Below are positions 31,497-37,792 of a DNA stretch of 64,000 nucleotides, piece by piece. The stretch spans positions 1 through 64,000 of the forward strand of contig NZ_JANQVQ010000007.1 of the NCBI RefSeq assembly GCF_030730205.1. Reading direction: 5' to 3'. The stretch comes from Paraglaciecola sp. (GTDB lineage Bacteria; Pseudomonadota; Gammaproteobacteria; Enterobacterales; Alteromonadaceae). Below the pieces are notes generated by a model. That model did no database searches, had not been told where the DNA came from, and saw nothing but the letters and a program-made list of their open reading frames with translations. The translations under genes and the position numbers were made by a program. Position 1 is the first letter of the stretch; each line of letters begins with the position of its first letter.

Positions 31497-32273
31497 ATGT
31501 TAATTGACTCCCATTGCCACCTCGACTTTCCTTGTTTTGATAACGACCGTCAGAACGTGATTGAAAAATGTTCTGGTTTAGGTATCGATACCATTGTGGT
31601 GCCGGGCACTGAGGCTAGTTCGTGGCAAAACATTATCGCACTAAGCCGACAATTTACTGCTTTAAAACCAGCATTTGGTTTACATCCTTACTTTTTGGCT
31701 GGTTTTGAGGAATCTCACTTAGATGAGTTAGTCGTTTATTTAGACAAGTATAAAAGTACTGTTGTGGCCGTGGGGGAGATAGGCTTGGATAGGGCAATCT
31801 CGGTTGATATTTCATTGCAAAAGAGGGTGTTTGAACGGCAACTCGATATTGCCCATGAGGCTGACCTGCCAGTCATTATTCATCATAGACGGTCTCACAA
31901 TGATATTATTAAAACCCTTAAGCACCTGAAATTTAGCGGTGGCGGTATTATTCACGCTTTTTCAGGAAGTCTACATGAGGCGCTAACTTACCAAGATTTA
32001 GGTTTTAAATTAGGAGTTGGAGGGCTGATCACTTATCCCCGTGGTCAAAAAACCAGAAAGGTAGTGGGGCAAGTGCCACTTGATTTATTAGTATTAGAAA
32101 CTGATGCGCCAGACATGCCTTTATTTGGCCAACAGGGCAAGCGAAATACGCCGGAAAACATTCCTATGATATTGGCTGAACTGGCGAGTTTGCGAGAAGA
32201 AAGTGCAGATGTTATTGCCTTACAATGTCGTCAGAATGTATTAGCCGTATTACAAAATATCACTACTGTGTAG
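31497..32273 (+). CDS. TatD-family metal-dependent hydrolase
   Basis: TIM-barrel metalloenzyme of 258 residues in the TatD nuclease family, probably a 3'-5' DNase or related phosphodiesterase. Metal ligands are visible in DSHCHLDF, GEIGLD, IIHHRRSHND, IIHAFSGS and LETDAPDMPL. Sequence style is nearer the YjjV branch than TatD proper. Its end overlaps by 24 bases with the convergent membrane-protein gene on the minus strand. Nuclease activity is known for the family, not shown here. Confidence 0.88.
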   Translation: MLIDSHCHLDFPCFDNDRQNVIEKCSGLGIDTIVVPGTEASSWQNIIALSRQFTALKPAFGLHPYFLAGFEESHLDELVVYLDKYKSTVVAVGEIGLDRAISVDISLQKRVFERQLDIAHEADLPVIIHHRRSHNDIIKTLKHLKFSGGGIIHAFSGSLHEALTYQDLGFKLGVGGLITYPRGQKTRKVVGQVPLDLLVLETDAPDMPLFGQQGKRNTPENIPMILAELASLREESADVIALQCRQNVLAVLQNITTV

Positions 32274-32933
32274 TTTTTCTTTGAGTTTACGCCGGTATTG
32301 GCGGTACCTGATTGTGTAAAAAGCCCGAGTCAAAATGCCGCCGGCCACTGCTGCCAACAAAACTAAGACTTCAAATTGCTCGATCAATTGTTGTTGATAG
32401 TCAAAATGAAACTGCATGACCTTTTTTTCTGAAAGTATAGTTCGAAGATAACCTATTACCGCATTGTTGGTGGCGCGTATCTCTTGAACAAAAATAAGTG
32501 CTTGAGAGGATGGGTCACGAAAACGCAACACGATGTTAGATTCACTGCCTTGCTGTTGTAATAACTGGCCTTTGAAATTATAGACGGCTACACCTTCAAT
32601 GTAGGGGTCCTGCATTAGCGCCGCTATTTGAAGATTTAGTCCATTATCATCTTGTTCCGAAATGTTAACAGCCATTGCGTGCGCACTCAGTACTGTTAAA
32701 CTTCTGCCTAGTTGATTGGCTTGTTGATGATACCAGTCAGCTTGTTGTTTGTGATGAACCAACCACAAGTTAATACAAATGATGACGCCAATAATGACCA
32801 AACTTAAGTTAAGCAAACGTTTGAAAATAGAAAAGTTACTAGCACGGCTTACATAAGGCTTTTTAACCGCTTGGCTTGTTTCTTCATTAGAATAAACAAG
32901 TTGAAAAAGTGAGGAGGCTTTAGGAATGTTCAT
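32250..32933 (-). CDS. Smp/AhpA (YtjB)-type membrane protein
   Basis: Membrane protein of 227 residues with a helix near 39-59, a periplasmic domain of about 120 residues (LGRSLTVLSAHAMAVNI, IAALMQDPYIEGVAVYNFKGQLLQQQG) and a second helix near 186-205 before a basic tail. This two-helix layout with a PAS/Cache-like extracytoplasmic core fits the Smp (YtjB) family, whose function is poorly known. The ATG at 32933 is chosen; the frame stays open upstream to 33074 but that extension is Cys-rich and does not look like an N-terminus. Convergent with the TatD-family gene and divergent from the ABC cassette. Confidence 0.7.
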   Translation of the reverse strand: MNIPKASSLFQLVYSNEETSQAVKKPYVSRASNFSIFKRLLNLSLVIIGVIICINLWLVHHKQQADWYHQQANQLGRSLTVLSAHAMAVNISEQDDNGLNLQIAALMQDPYIEGVAVYNFKGQLLQQQGSESNIVLRFRDPSSQALIFVQEIRATNNAVIGYLRTILSEKKVMQFHFDYQQQLIEQFEVLVLLAAVAGGILTRAFYTIRYRQYRRKLKEKLHSSDIL

Positions 32934-33238
32934 GCTCTGACAATAATGCAGTTTGGTTAAATTGCCAAGGCAAATTAAGCAGATTACTTGCTGATTGTTA
33001 TTGCCTACCTTAGTAAGGTGCGGCTCGTAAAATAGGATACCCACTGTTTGGTGCATGCTTCTTTGGTACTGCATTTGAAATAGTTTTTTTATATGTTCTA
33101 TCGTTTTTAAACGTAGTAGGCGAATTAAAATAACTGCCTTTGGTAACGATATAATGGCTTTTAACTTTCAGACCTATTGAAAATACGAGCGTTATCACCA
33201 TATTTTTGCTCAGTGTTTTCGATCATTTTAGGATAGTT
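32934..33238. other. Divergent intergenic region before the ABC cassette
   Basis: About 305 bases without a supported gene. A TATAAT at 33150-33155 is a candidate -10 for the ABC cassette, but its -35 region is poor. Part of it is an open continuation of the minus-strand frame (to 33074) that I do not regard as coding. Confidence 0.4.
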
Positions 33239-34165
33239 ATGATCTCGGTAAAAAACTTATACAAGTCCTTCGGTGATGTGATGGCCGTTGATGATCTTAG
33301 TTTCGAAATAAAACCTGGAGATGTTGTTGGTTTCTTAGGGCCAAACGGGGCAGGGAAATCTACTACTATGAAAATGCTCACTGGCTTTTTACCCCAAAGC
33401 TCAGGTGAAATTTCGATTTTTGATATGTCGTTGAGTCAGCATCCCATTGCTATCAAAAAGAGAATTGGCTATCTACCAGAGGGTGCTCCCGCATATGGTG
33501 ATATGACGACGCTTCAGTTCTTGAATTTTATTGCTCAAATTAGGGATTATTCGGGTAAAGAAAAACAAGAGCGTATTCAAGATGTAATTGAAAAAGTAGA
33601 GCTGCAAGATGTGCTCGATAAACCCATTGAAAATCTATCAAAAGGGTTCAAACGACGTGTGGGTTTGGCCCAAGCTTTACTTCATGACCCTCAAATTCTT
33701 ATTCTAGATGAGCCTACAGACGGTTTAGACCCCAATCAAAAACATCAAGTTCGGCAACTAATTCAAAATCTTGCAAAAGATAAAATTGTGATTATCTCCA
33801 CTCATATCCTCGAAGAAGTCAGCGCAGTGTGCAATCGAGTCATGATTATTGCCAATGGTAAATTGATGTTTAATGGCACGCCTGAGGAGCTAAATCGTAA
33901 ATCCCGTTATTACGGAGCGATTACGCTGCGCTTTAGCTATAAAGCAGATACTTCAGAATTAGAGGAATTAGAAGGGGTTGCTGGCATGGAGGTTAATCCA
34001 GAAAATGGCGACATAACTCTGTTTGCTGAGCCTGACAAACAAATTTTACATTTGGTGACGGCTCTAATTCAGCGCTGTAAATTACCTGTTGATAGTCTAA
34101 TGATTGAGCAGGGCAGGCTAGACGAAGTTTTTAGGGATATTACTCAAATGGAGAAAGCAGAATGA
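33239..34165 (+). CDS. ABC transporter ATPase, GldA-like
   Basis: Nucleotide-binding subunit of an ABC-2 type exporter. Walker A GPNGAGKST at 34-42, signature LSKGFKRRVGLAQ near 133, Walker B LILDEPTDGLDP near 157 and the switch His in STH are all present; a 70-residue C-terminal extension follows the core. Starting at the ATG at 33239 (AGGA six bases upstream) gives 308 residues; the earlier in-frame start at 33206 is less likely. The stop overlaps the permease start (ATGA). The four-gene set resembles the gliding-motility GldA-GldF-GldG type seen also in non-gliding bacteria; the cargo is unknown. Confidence 0.9.
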   Translation: MISVKNLYKSFGDVMAVDDLSFEIKPGDVVGFLGPNGAGKSTTMKMLTGFLPQSSGEISIFDMSLSQHPIAIKKRIGYLPEGAPAYGDMTTLQFLNFIAQIRDYSGKEKQERIQDVIEKVELQDVLDKPIENLSKGFKRRVGLAQALLHDPQILILDEPTDGLDPNQKHQVRQLIQNLAKDKIVIISTHILEEVSAVCNRVMIIANGKLMFNGTPEELNRKSRYYGAITLRFSYKADTSELEELEGVAGMEVNPENGDITLFAEPDKQILHLVTALIQRCKLPVDSLMIEQGRLDEVFRDITQMEKAE

Positions 34166-34896
34166 GTAATGTGTTAATTCTACTCAAGCGAGAGTTTGCA
34201 AGTTTCTTTGCTACCCCAGTAGCGTATGTATTTATTGCTATATTTTTAATTTTATCCGGTGTTTTTGCGTTTTTTGTAGGTGGTCTGTACGAACGAGGTC
34301 AGGCCGATTTATTGGCCTTTTTTAATTTCCATCCTTGGCTATACCTTTTTTTAGTGCCAGCGATGGCGATGCGAACATGGTCAGAAGAAAGGAAAAGTGG
34401 CAGTATCGAACTGCTAATGACCCTTCCTATTAGCACTTGGCAGGCAATGATAGCTAAGTATCTAGCTGCTTGGTTGGTACTTGGCTTGGCATTGGTTTTG
34501 ACTTTTCCGCTGTGGTTAACCGTAAACTATCTAGGCAACCCTGATAACGGCATTATATTGGCCGCCTATATTGGGAGTTGGTTTATGGCTGGTGCTTTTT
34601 TAGCGATTGGGATTTGCATGTCTGCCATGACTAAAAACCAAGTTATAGCTTTTATATTGTCGGTTGTGGTGTGCTTTTTGTTTGTGGTGAGCGGCAGCAA
34701 TATCGTATTAGATATATTCAAAAATTGGGCTCCCAATCTTGTGATTGATACCATCGCATCTTTCAGTTTTTTAACGCACTTTGAGGCAATGTCTAAAGGC
34801 GTTATTGCATTAAACGACATAGGGTATTTTTTGTTGGTCACCCTGACATGGCTTTTTGCGGGTTTAATTATCATTGATCAAAAGAAGGCGGATTAG
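34162..34896 (+). CDS. ABC-2 type permease, GldF-like
   Basis: Membrane subunit of 244 residues with about six helices, opening MSNVLILLKREFASFFATPVAYVFIAIFL (shown in part) and carrying the family loop MRTWSEERKSGSIELLMTLPI. This loop is the usual mark of GldF-type ABC-2 permeases. Translationally coupled with the ATPase upstream and two bases from the GldG-like gene downstream, so the subunits are made together. Confidence 0.88.
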   Translation: MSNVLILLKREFASFFATPVAYVFIAIFLILSGVFAFFVGGLYERGQADLLAFFNFHPWLYLFLVPAMAMRTWSEERKSGSIELLMTLPISTWQAMIAKYLAAWLVLGLALVLTFPLWLTVNYLGNPDNGIILAAYIGSWFMAGAFLAIGICMSAMTKNQVIAFILSVVVCFLFVVSGSNIVLDIFKNWAPNLVIDTIASFSFLTHFEAMSKGVIALNDIGYFLLVTLTWLFAGLIIIDQKKAD

Positions 34897-34898
34897 TC

Positions 34899-36767
34899 AT
34901 GCTAAATAAAGTAACCGCAACGTTCAGTTTATTGCTTATCGCTATCGTTTTTTTTGCATTGGTGTTGATTAATAATCAATTATTGTCGCCTTTACGCTTA
35001 GATCTCACACAAAATCAAGTGTATTCGCTATCTACGGGCAGCAAAGAAGTCTTAGCTGAAATTGACGAGCCTATTAACTTGTACTTTTTCTTTTCAGACA
35101 AAGCCTCAAAAAATATGACCAGTTTGCGTAATTACGCTAATCGAGTAGAAAGTCTATTGAGGGAATACCAGACTATGGCTAATGGCAAACTAAGCCTTCA
35201 GGTAATTGATCCTCAACCGTTTTCTGAACAAGAAGATCAAGCCAACCAGTACGGTCTTACTGGGGCGACAATTGGTGCTGCTGGTGAAGCTATTTATTTG
35301 GGGGTGGCGGCAACAAATTCGATTGGTGAGCATAAGGTCATTGCGTTTTTTGACCCTAAACAAGAGAGTTTTTTGGAGTACGAGATCAGTAAGCTTATTC
35401 ACCAGTTAAGCGATACTAAAGCAATTAAAGTAACGTTATTGACCGACTTAAATATTGCTGGTGGACAAAATCCAATGACTGGGCAAATGGAACCTGCGTG
35501 GACATTTTTTACTCAGTTACAGCAACTTAACGAAGTTGAGTTAGTGGGAAGTGATATCGTAACCCTACCGACTGATACCGATCTATTGGTGCTCGTTCAT
35601 CCTCAACATCTAAGTGATGAGCTACTCTTTGCTATCGATCAATACGCGATGCAGGGAGGCAAAGTATTAGCCTTTGTCGATCCGCACAATGAGTCTGACC
35701 AACTGGCCATGATGGCCGGCTCAATGGGGCCGAATAGTTCTTCGCTTGACAAACTCCTGAGCGCTTGGGGTGTAGATTTTGACGGTGAACATGTATTGCT
35801 TGATGCGATGGCAGGCTTAGATATTCGTACTCAATCTGGCGGAGTGACACGTCATTTTGGCTTTGTAGGGCTTGGGGCTGAACAGTTAGACAGGGAAGAT
35901 ATTACAACTTCGAATTTAGAAGTCATTAATGGCGCATCGTTTGGTACCTTTACTAAAAAAGCGGACAGCCAAGCGCGCTGGTTACCACTGATGAAATCCA
36001 CCGTAAATGCAGATCTTATCGACTCGGCTAGCTATGCGATGACCAGAGATCCCGATGAATTAGCAAGAAAATACCAAAGTAAAAATCGTCAATATACTCT
36101 TGCAGGGCGATTAACTGGGAAAGCCAATTCCGCATATGATCAAGGACTCGATGCTGAACAAAGCACAGTTTTTGTAGATTCAACCAAGAATTTGAATGTG
36201 ATTGTAGTCGGTGATACTGACATACTCGCAGACCGGTTTTGGGTGCAGCAAGCTAATTTCTTTGGCCAAACGATTTTCACTCCTTTTGCCAATAATGGAG
36301 ACTTTGTTACTAATGCAGTTGAAAACTTAAGTGGCAGTGACGCATTAATTAGTGTCCGTAGTCGTGGTACCTTTGTTCGTCCTTTTATCAAAGTGGATGA
36401 GCTAACCGTTCTAGCGGAGAAGAAATTCAGGGAGCAAGAATTAATTTTGCAACAGCAACTCGATGAGACAGAAGCGCAATTAATGCAACTGCAATCACAA
36501 CAAGATGATGGAACTGCTTTAGTCATTTCTCCTGAGCAGCAGCAGACAATTGATAACTTCATGCAGAAAAAAATTGAAATTAGAAAAGCACTTCGTGAAG
36601 TTCGTCACCAATTAGACAAAGACATAGAGCAATTAGGCAATTGGATTAAATTTATTAATATCGCTGTTGCTCCCCTTATTTTGGTGATGTTATTGGCATT
36701 ATTAGCAGCAATGTTGCGAACTCGCTCTAATGCATCACAACGTGAGCACGTTAAGGAGGCAAAATGA
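34899..36767 (+). CDS. GldG-like ABC auxiliary protein
   Basis: Protein of 622 residues anchored by an N-terminal helix (about 8-27) and a C-terminal helix (about 586-608), with a large extracytoplasmic body. The body resembles the ABC_transp_aux/GldG domain: LDLTQNQVYSLSTGSKEVLAEIDEPINLYFF (in part) at the start and LLVLVHPQHLSDELLFAIDQY plus GGKVLAFVDPH in the middle. A coiled coil covers about 506-570. No enzyme motif is seen. It overlaps the DUF4340 gene by four bases. Known relatives sit beside ABC-2 pairs, but their role outside gliding bacteria is open. Confidence 0.85.
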   Translation: MLNKVTATFSLLLIAIVFFALVLINNQLLSPLRLDLTQNQVYSLSTGSKEVLAEIDEPINLYFFFSDKASKNMTSLRNYANRVESLLREYQTMANGKLSLQVIDPQPFSEQEDQANQYGLTGATIGAAGEAIYLGVAATNSIGEHKVIAFFDPKQESFLEYEISKLIHQLSDTKAIKVTLLTDLNIAGGQNPMTGQMEPAWTFFTQLQQLNEVELVGSDIVTLPTDTDLLVLVHPQHLSDELLFAIDQYAMQGGKVLAFVDPHNESDQLAMMAGSMGPNSSSLDKLLSAWGVDFDGEHVLLDAMAGLDIRTQSGGVTRHFGFVGLGAEQLDREDITTSNLEVINGASFGTFTKKADSQARWLPLMKSTVNADLIDSASYAMTRDPDELARKYQSKNRQYTLAGRLTGKANSAYDQGLDAEQSTVFVDSTKNLNVIVVGDTDILADRFWVQQANFFGQTIFTPFANNGDFVTNAVENLSGSDALISVRSRGTFVRPFIKVDELTVLAEKKFREQELILQQQLDETEAQLMQLQSQQDDGTALVISPEQQQTIDNFMQKKIEIRKALREVRHQLDKDIEQLGNWIKFINIAVAPLILVMLLALLAAMLRTRSNASQREHVKEAK

Positions 36768-37792
36768 ACAGGCAGATAAGCCTCTTAATTTTACTCGCTA
36801 TAGCCGCGGTGGGTGGTGGAGTATGGTTAACCATGACTTCACAAACCAGTGATTTTTCAGTAGAAAAACTTTTCAGCTCAGGTGCATCTGATGCAGAATC
36901 TGTTGTCGAAATTACCTTAGAAAATAGTCAAAAAGTGATCTTGCAAGCGAGCTTAGAGGATGGAAATTGGCTAGCTAAGTTGCCTGATACGTATACAAGT
37001 TATCCCTTAGATAAACGAAAATTAGCAGGGTTTATACAAGCCATTGTAAACGCACAATTAATAGAGGCTAAAACCTCGAAGCAGAAAAATTATCATCACC
37101 TAGGCGTTGAATCCATCGATAATGTCGACAGTTTGGCCACGTTAGTGTCACTGAAAATGGCTCGCTCTGCCAAACCATGGCAAGTACTACTGGGGAATCG
37201 AGCTACTATGGGAGAAGGCATGTATGTTCGCTTTCCAACATCCTTGCAAAGTTGGTTAATTGACCATGAAATAGAAGTGCCCAGTGATGAATTTGAATGG
37301 TTGCAGCGCCCACTGCTCACTGTTGACTCGGCAGAGATCGAATCTTTAAGTCGTACTGATGGCAAAGCGTGGCGTATTGTTAAAGCCAAGGACAATGACT
37401 TTAGTCTCAGCGATGTCGCTGATAATAGAGAGGTGCGTTATCCGGGTATCGAGAGTGCTTATGTCACGAGTCTTTTAGAACTTGATTTTGAACGAGTTTT
37501 GCCTCTAGATTCTGCACAGTGGCAACAAGCTCAAATTGTGGCAAAGTTTGATTATGTGCTCACAGATGCCAGACAGCTGCATATTGATATAGCGAAGCTC
37601 GAAACCGATTATTACCTGCAGGTCAATTCTCAAACAATAGACGCCTATTATTTGCAATGGACCTATAAAATTAGCGCTTTTAGTGCGCAGCAATTATTGA
37701 AAACGAAGGAAGACTTTCTAGTTGAGCTTGCGCCGGTTAATGCAGCTAAAAGCGTGAAACAAAAAACAGATGAAGGTGAGGCCCCTTTTTAA
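36764..37792 (+). CDS. DUF4340 domain protein of the ABC cassette
   Basis: Protein of 342 residues with one N-terminal helix (about 5-24) and an extracytoplasmic body of beta-rich repeats (ITLENSQKVILQASLEDGNWLAKLPDTY in part, YPLDKRKLAGFIQAIVNAQLIEAKT, YHHLGVESIDN). This is the DUF4340 pattern, a family found next to GldG-like genes. Start overlaps the previous stop (ATGA) with AAGGAGG upstream. It ends the four-gene cassette. Function unknown; probably a periplasmic partner of the GldG-like subunit. Confidence 0.82.
   Translation: MNRQISLLILLAIAAVGGGVWLTMTSQTSDFSVEKLFSSGASDAESVVEITLENSQKVILQASLEDGNWLAKLPDTYTSYPLDKRKLAGFIQAIVNAQLIEAKTSKQKNYHHLGVESIDNVDSLATLVSLKMARSAKPWQVLLGNRATMGEGMYVRFPTSLQSWLIDHEIEVPSDEFEWLQRPLLTVDSAEIESLSRTDGKAWRIVKAKDNDFSLSDVADNREVRYPGIESAYVTSLLELDFERVLPLDSAQWQQAQIVAKFDYVLTDARQLHIDIAKLETDYYLQVNSQTIDAYYLQWTYKISAFSAQQLLKTKEDFLVELAPVNAAKSVKQKTDEGEAPF

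Follow-up and report, generated by a model that had tools for sequence, protein, structure and literature searches.

The closest described relatives of the cassette reported here are GldA, GldF and GldG of Flavobacterium, an ATPase, an ABC-2 permease and a GldG-type protein that support gliding motility and type IX secretion. In a study of F. johnsoniae, GldA point mutants had reduced GldJ and GldK, GldF was required for the stability of GldK, and GldA reached the membrane only with GldF and GldG (PMC9127263). In F. psychrophilum, a gldG mutant lost adhesion, biofilm and proteolytic activity and, in part, type IX secretion; that paper leaves the precise molecular function of GldG open and describes type IX secretion as apparently restricted to Bacteroidetes (PMC5682007).

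Related proteins are on record elsewhere. Archaeal arCOG01314 (DUF4350) proteins are similar to GldG (PMC5898192), of two COG3225 (GldG) entries in Leptospira interrogans one adjoins a COG1277 permease (PMC1664576), and a 2011 genome paper noted three neighbouring GldA/F/G-like ABC genes in the gammaproteobacterium Thiothrix nivea and in Bdellovibrio (PMC3368414). In the available text of the latter, the link to gliding is made by likeness only and a DUF4340 gene is not named. In Verrucomicrobium spinosum, a DUF4340 domain within one protein is reported to be essential (PMC12283558). The literature searched, which covered few subscription journals, contained no functional study of the cassette outside the Bacteroidota and, in the texts available, no reported function in Proteobacteria, in line with the preliminary description, which had called the cargo and role in Gammaproteobacteria open. 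A relative with the same gene order and a proven ordinary function, such as a drug or lipid exporter, was sought and not found.

Organisation of the cassette

The cassette occupies positions 33239-37792 of the window, which is the whole 64,000-nucleotide stretch of Paraglaciecola DNA analysed, and consists of four genes that we call A, F, G and D.

33239..34165, + strand: A, ABC ATPase, nearest curated family GldA (TIGR03522); ORF, Pfam, NCBIfam and motif scan
34162..34896, + strand: F, ABC-2 type permease, nearest curated family GldF (TIGR03518); ORF, Pfam, NCBIfam and hydropathy
34899..36767, + strand: G, predicted GldG-like membrane-anchored periplasmic protein, PF09822 + DUF7088; ORF, Pfam, NCBIfam and AlphaFold2 model
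34902..34979, + strand: predicted N-terminal membrane helix of G, residues 2-27; model and hydropathy
35010..35312, + strand: DUF7088 domain of G, residues 38-138; Pfam
35421..36356, + strand: GIFT-fold domain of G, residues 175-486; structure alignment of the model
36387..36761, + strand: C-terminal long helices of G, residues 497-536 and 545-621; secondary structure of the model
36764..37792, + strand: D, DUF4340 protein with one predicted N-terminal membrane helix, apparently an accessory subunit; ORF, Pfam, hydropathy and model

Counted from its ATG, A has 308 aa (the mechanical ORF begins upstream at a TTG, 33206), and F, G and D have 244, 622 and 342 aa, respectively. A and F, like G and D, overlap by four bases (ATGA), and F and G are separated by two bases; these coordinates confirm the four-gene operon that had been proposed from the letters, and the family names given to the genes agree with the Pfam matches. 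Searches with DUF4340, PF09822 and a G profile found a single copy of the set in the genome. A promoter scan returned 12 sites where 12.8 were expected from shuffled sequence, and seven terminator-like sites were present compared with 3.9 in shuffled sequence (sd 1.8), none of the seven downstream of D.

A and F resemble an ABC-2 type transporter

A matched ABC_tran in Pfam (1.2e-31), and a motif scan located all four elements sought: Walker A (GPNGAGKS), the signature (LSKG), Walker B (ILILDEP) and the H-loop (STH). Across 78 A-type ORFs, the window included, the LSKG signature is followed by F or Y in 77, reading LSKGFKRR in 68, LSKGYKRR in four, LSKGFRRR in three and LSKGFRHR in two, with one ORF giving no match. 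F matched ABC2_membrane_3 (2.1e-9), has five hydropathy segments above threshold and exceeds the cut-offs of three ABC-2 models (PF12698, 37.4 against 31.6 bits; PF12679, 34.4 against 27.2; PF13346, 32.3 against 25). With complete ATPase motifs in A and a permease above the ABC-2 cut-offs, the pair has the features of an ABC-2 type transporter. Among proteins of solved structure, A comes nearest in sequence to the lipid exporters ABCA3/4/7/1, and NosF is also among its solved relatives; the F profile found a weak match to heme exporter protein B (E 0.04).

We asked how near the cassette stands to the Flavobacterium proteins. GldA, GldF and GldG are the best curated NCBIfam models for A (TIGR03522, 308.9 bits), F (TIGR03518, 186.5 bits) and G (TIGR03521, 100.7 bits), F directly precedes G in both systems, and the signature is of the LSKG type in both, LSKGYRQR in GldA and LSKGF here. 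The earlier label of GldA/GldF/GldG-like therefore stands as a statement of the nearest curated families, but all three scores lie under the equivalog cut-offs (402.6, 288.5 and 389.85 bits, respectively), so these are not Gld proteins proper. A DUF4340 gene also follows G here, and A adjoins F, whereas gldA of F. johnsoniae lies apart from gldF-gldG by locus number (Fjoh_1516 versus Fjoh_2722/2721, PMC9127263). Given these differences and the apparent restriction of type IX secretion to Bacteroidetes, a role like that of GldA, GldF and GldG in supporting gliding motility and type IX secretion is extremely improbable, even with the likeness of families and signature in its favour. Models for GldL and SprA had no match in this genome, nor in any control genome, so that the earlier label of a non-gliding-type genome is presumptive.

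The four proteins differ in conservation. Over the 59 loci with all four genes, mean pairwise identity is 67% for F, 58% for A, 48% for G and 25% for D, and in 1669 of 1711 locus pairs the identity of F is higher than that of A. Among 24 genomes of the family, F exceeds A in all 276 pairs and exceeds the ATPase core (residues 1-225 of A) in 249. The same comparison in these genomes gave MlaE over MlaF in 258 of 276 pairs and CcmB over CcmA in 208 of 276, and the opposite in the Lol system, where LolC exceeds LolD in only 6 of 153 pairs and LolE exceeds LolD in 1 of 231. It should be noted that LolD, LolC and LolE were recovered in 22, 18 and 22 of the 24 genomes and that some of the LolC picks, whose lowest identity was 13%, are probably wrong or cut. 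Because the Mla and Ccm controls behave likewise, we dropped the conservation of F over A as a special trait; it supports a dedicated small permease and no more.

The second-best model for A is TIGR01188, a daunorubicin-resistance subfamily (225.7 bits), which would suit an ordinary DrrAB-type exporter of drugs or toxic compounds. A lies under the cut-off of this model (312.45), F is strongly conserved over loci, and no gene family recurs next to the cassette across lineages in 81 gene maps, namely the window and the best 80 of at least 567 confirmed stretches. To our knowledge, DrrAB also lacks a counterpart of the periplasmic G and D. On these grounds we consider such an exporter unlikely.

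A predicted GIFT-fold domain in G between two predicted membrane anchors

G matched PF09822 (ABC_transp_aux) at 5.5e-56, with 190.4 bits against a cut-off of 34.7, and DUF7088 at 2.9e-25. The Pfam name, which refers to an uncharacterised transport system, is no evidence for transport. Hydropathy places one helix at each end of G (residues 6-24 and 588-606) and a single N-terminal helix in D (residues 5-23), so that two large extracytoplasmic proteins with membrane helices, as first described, are correct as a prediction. The AlphaFold2 model of G has a mean pLDDT of 86.2, with lower values in the C-terminal helix region (blocks of pLDDT 52-83). In the model, the long helices 497-536 and 545-621 come after the GIFT domain and the second ends in the C-terminal membrane helix; the two likely form an antiparallel hairpin, a packing deduced from the secondary structure.

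A Foldseek search with the model ranked oligosaccharyltransferase chains best (7oci_G, E 2.6e-8; 6c26_B, E 2.5e-7). In structure alignments, residues 175-486 were superimposed on the oligosaccharyltransferase chains 8b6l_N (Z 20.6, rmsd 3.1, 228 aligned residues, 18% identity) and 6s7o_G (Z 19.8, rmsd 3.2, 229 aligned) and on IFT52 (5fmr_A; Z 18.3, rmsd 3.2, 219 aligned). The other entries scored lower: a SPRING/S1P chain had Z 14.8, and domains of the glutamine-amidotransferase-like and galactosidase types had about 11-14. We take the matched oligosaccharyltransferase chain to be OST48/Wbp1. By sequence, the G profile reached one weak chain among solved structures (E 0.0054). The Pfam IFT52 GIFT model also matches, under its cut-off, two relatives of G from three-gene loci.

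G is thus predicted to have the GIFT fold in common with a eukaryotic oligosaccharyltransferase chain and with IFT52, a likeness of fold that shows no common function. It does suggest one specific possibility for what G may hold. One could suppose that A-F-G translocates a lipid-linked glycan and that G shares descent with the eukaryotic oligosaccharyltransferase subunit that is membrane-anchored and has a GIFT domain, GIFT being an old docking domain for lipid-linked sugars that was kept on the equivalent side of the membrane (periplasm or ER lumen) and later reused in IFT52. We regard this scenario as very unlikely. We know of no ABC transporter partner of the oligosaccharyltransferase. The GIFT domain of IFT52 is reported to bind IFT-B2 (PMC7561706).

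The cassette is widespread and its core is A-F-G

PF09822 is present in 27 of 197 genomes of the order (24 above its cut-off) and DUF4340 in 20 of 197; in the phylum, DUF4340 is present in 114 of 398 genomes. A pattern scan of genomes of named species found at least 591 stretches, of which at least 567 encode a G relative. The matches listed include Alteromonadaceae, Psychrosphaera, Pseudomonas, Halopseudomonas, Stutzerimonas, Azotobacter, Xanthomonadales, Thiotrichales, Woeseia and others. Among them, Paraglaciecola hydrolytica is nearest, with 79% identity in G. The cassette is therefore no special feature of its own genome and is by sequence an unremarkable member of a family that is widespread, named and functionally open, not a new kind of system. 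The earlier proposal of an undescribed envelope system survives only in that the job of the family is unknown; the family itself is already catalogued, and GldA/F/G-like genes in a gammaproteobacterium were noted in 2011 (PMC3368414). In P. aeruginosa, PA4040 is a DUF4340 protein (PMC8088628).

PA4040 has the same family name as D, and the whole cassette is present in other Pseudomonas species. PA4037-PA4039 are presumably the A-F-G genes of P. aeruginosa; no paper naming two of PA4037-PA4040 together was found in the literature searched.

Contigs leave room for the whole cassette in 74 of the 81 loci. All four genes lie together in 64 of these 74 and A-F-G lacks an adjacent D in the other 10, where D was scored as adjacent within 6 kb of G and the profiles were made from 59 of these loci, so that the figure is a count and not an independent test. 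The tight intergenic spacing recurs among relatives. At the level of the order (20 loci from 19 genomes), eight loci show A-F-G-D and three A-F-G only, the third protein carrying PF09822 and DUF7088 in both of the two checked. In seven loci, a single fusion protein of 952-991 aa combines F and G, and a DUF4340 gene comes next; in one of these (L079), the ABC-2 part spans residues 88-211, DUF7088 310-414 and PF09822 606-895. One locus (L076) has A and D and a PF09822 match in between, where ORF picking missed the F-G stretch, and a divergent one (L084) has A-F-G with a DUF4340 gene two genes upstream of A. The fusions indicate that F and G sit together, and synteny and fusion jointly make it well supported that A, F and G would work as one envelope ABC machine. 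Paraglaciecola, Pseudomonas and Xanthomonadales would then possess an ABC machine related to that of Bacteroidota. In one Alteromonas genome (G121, contig C6; L079 / L078), the split and fused forms lie about 14 kb apart.

D matched DUF4340 (PF14238) at 5.7e-8, with 33.6 bits against a cut-off of 25, and had no match among the NCBIfam models. Its structure model is confident (mean pLDDT 93.3), yet Foldseek returned nothing at E <= 0.001, its top hit being RseB (E 0.015, prob 0.07), the best solved chain for the D profile by sequence was only at E 0.93, and a second structure search gave at best Z 7.1 (2mct, 99 aligned residues, rmsd 2.9, residues 182-314), which may reflect merely a common arrangement, so that we assign no fold to D. 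A profile search of the 10 genomes without an adjacent D located a displaced D in one (L139) and none in nine, three of which (L138, L141 and L168) are metagenome-assembled and possibly incomplete; the controls L151 and L119 were matched, both being rows of the D profile. This absence suggests that D is accessory. The idea of one four-gene unit thus holds for most loci with room, but by sequence the core looks like A-F-G, with D sometimes missing.

The nine loci with A-F-G and no detectable D (L130, L138, L140, L141, L144, L145, L148, L158 and L168) belong to pseudomonads, including Azotobacter vinelandii and Stutzerimonas, and to two other Pseudomonadales-type metagenome-assembled genomes.

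No fifth gene, cargo gene or client gene is common to the loci in the 81 maps (the window and the best 80 of at least 567). The neighbours are lineage-specific housekeeping genes, with proS, trmO, DUF1415, folD and tig in Alteromonadaceae and plsB, dapE and others in Pseudomonas; these names come from reading the sequences, except DUF1415, which is a Pfam match. We dropped plsB as a pointer to lipids, since this neighbour family (19 loci) stands beside Pseudomonas-type loci only. In three Xanthomonadales loci (L134, L152 and L167), a gene for a protein of about 980 aa lies 3' of D, directly or past one small gene. By eye, this protein resembles a secreted hydrolase of the penicillin acylase type.

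A tentative model for the A-F-G-D machine

We tentatively propose that the cassette encodes an envelope exporter of the ABC-2 type that includes its own periplasmic subunits. An F dimer in the inner membrane would be powered by a pair of A subunits, and G would be tethered at both ends beside F, with its DUF7088 and GIFT domains and the helical hairpin facing the periplasm. D would be a periplasmic partner that is optional and evolves fast. Driven by the binding and hydrolysis of ATP, an amphipathic constituent of the envelope, either a lipid or a lipid-linked glycan, would leave the inner membrane and be received or handed over by G, together with D where D is present; such transport could indirectly support outer-membrane and surface structures. 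The genes, motifs and domain families stand on direct observation, the fold of G is a prediction and the unity of the A-F-G core draws on comparison; we infer the stoichiometry, the direction of transport, the cargo and the hand-over.

The proposal draws on the complete ABC motifs of A, the scores of F above the ABC-2 cut-offs, the F-G fusion, the four genes lying together in 64 of 74 loci and the conservation of F over A. The lipid exporters nearest to A point the same way, with the limit that this likeness concerns the nucleotide-binding domain and tells little about the substrate. Also consistent are the effects of Flavobacterium GldA, GldF and GldG on the stability or amount of surface-machine proteins (PMC9127263, PMC5682007) and the DUF4340 domain reported to be essential in V. 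spinosum (PMC12283558). Against export, neither a cargo nor a phenotype points to it, no fifth gene is common to the 81 maps (the window and the best 80 of at least 567), many relatives lack the cassette or have it in decayed form, and any small, dedicated permease is compatible with the conservation of F over A.

The main rival is mechanotransmission without transport, in which the ATPase cycle would act through F to set the periplasmic domains of G and D in motion, and these would serve another envelope protein as its chaperone, extractor or switch. NosFY acts in this way on NosD, and MacB and FtsEX on their partners. The large periplasmic mass on a minimal permease of 244 aa, the two long helices of G beyond the GIFT domain in the model, the presence of NosF among the solved relatives of A and the loss of other proteins among the Flavobacterium defects (PMC9127263) would all suit such a machine. 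However, F is the best conserved protein and D the least, a pattern more in keeping with a conserved path through the membrane than with a variable client site; moreover, D, the candidate client-binding part, is sometimes absent, and the 81 maps (again the best 80 of at least 567 with the window) share no client gene. Weighing these points, we keep export as our best guess and place mechanotransmission, itself somewhat doubtful, close behind.

Descent, loss and the genomic site

In a tree of G (92 rows, quick method), the Alteromonadales form one supported group of 31, the Pseudomonadaceae one of 28 and the Xanthomonadales one of 4; the deep placement of the fused, three-gene and divergent types is unsafe because of long branches. 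The tree broadly tracks organism groups, which suggests that the descent of the cassette is old and mostly vertical. A short metagenome-assembled contig labelled Rhodospirillaceae (L150) falls among gammaproteobacterial rows.

A G-profile match of some kind was obtained in 54 of 98 genomes of the family: 39 full-length of the window type, one in two frames (G589), six fused, seven weak only and one in fragments only (G600). In G600 (L202 5969-8102), A and F match at full length between trmO and DUF1415 and G is in pieces; D was not detected between these two genes. This remnant favours loss of the cassette over gain, at least in G600. In G589 (L201 5657-7538), of the same genus as the window, the cassette is complete except that G is split over two overlapping frames, through a real frameshift or an assembly error.

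The commonest site in Alteromonadaceae is proS-trmO-[A-F-G-D]-DUF1415-folD. Empty sites, with trmO directly beside DUF1415 and no cassette, were found in one of 19 genomes without a window-type G (G090) and in two of 18 further stretches (G031 and G621), where G624 is in both sets and the remaining genomes are uninformative, having DUF1415 elsewhere. G121 (record L117) has a filled site and its congener G031 an empty one. The split between an A-F-G core and a dispensable D, the relatives that naturally lack D and the sites that are empty or in decay provide ready comparisons toward the cargo.

In the window, the neighbour upstream of A is a divergent gene (32250-33074, - strand) with two membrane segments by eye and no Pfam match, which is also present in three Paraglaciecola loci (L091, L092 and L100) and in G589. 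In 22 of the 81 maps, a trmO-like gene stands in its place, mostly directly before A. This alternation points to a rearrangement breakpoint that probably adjoins the cassette.
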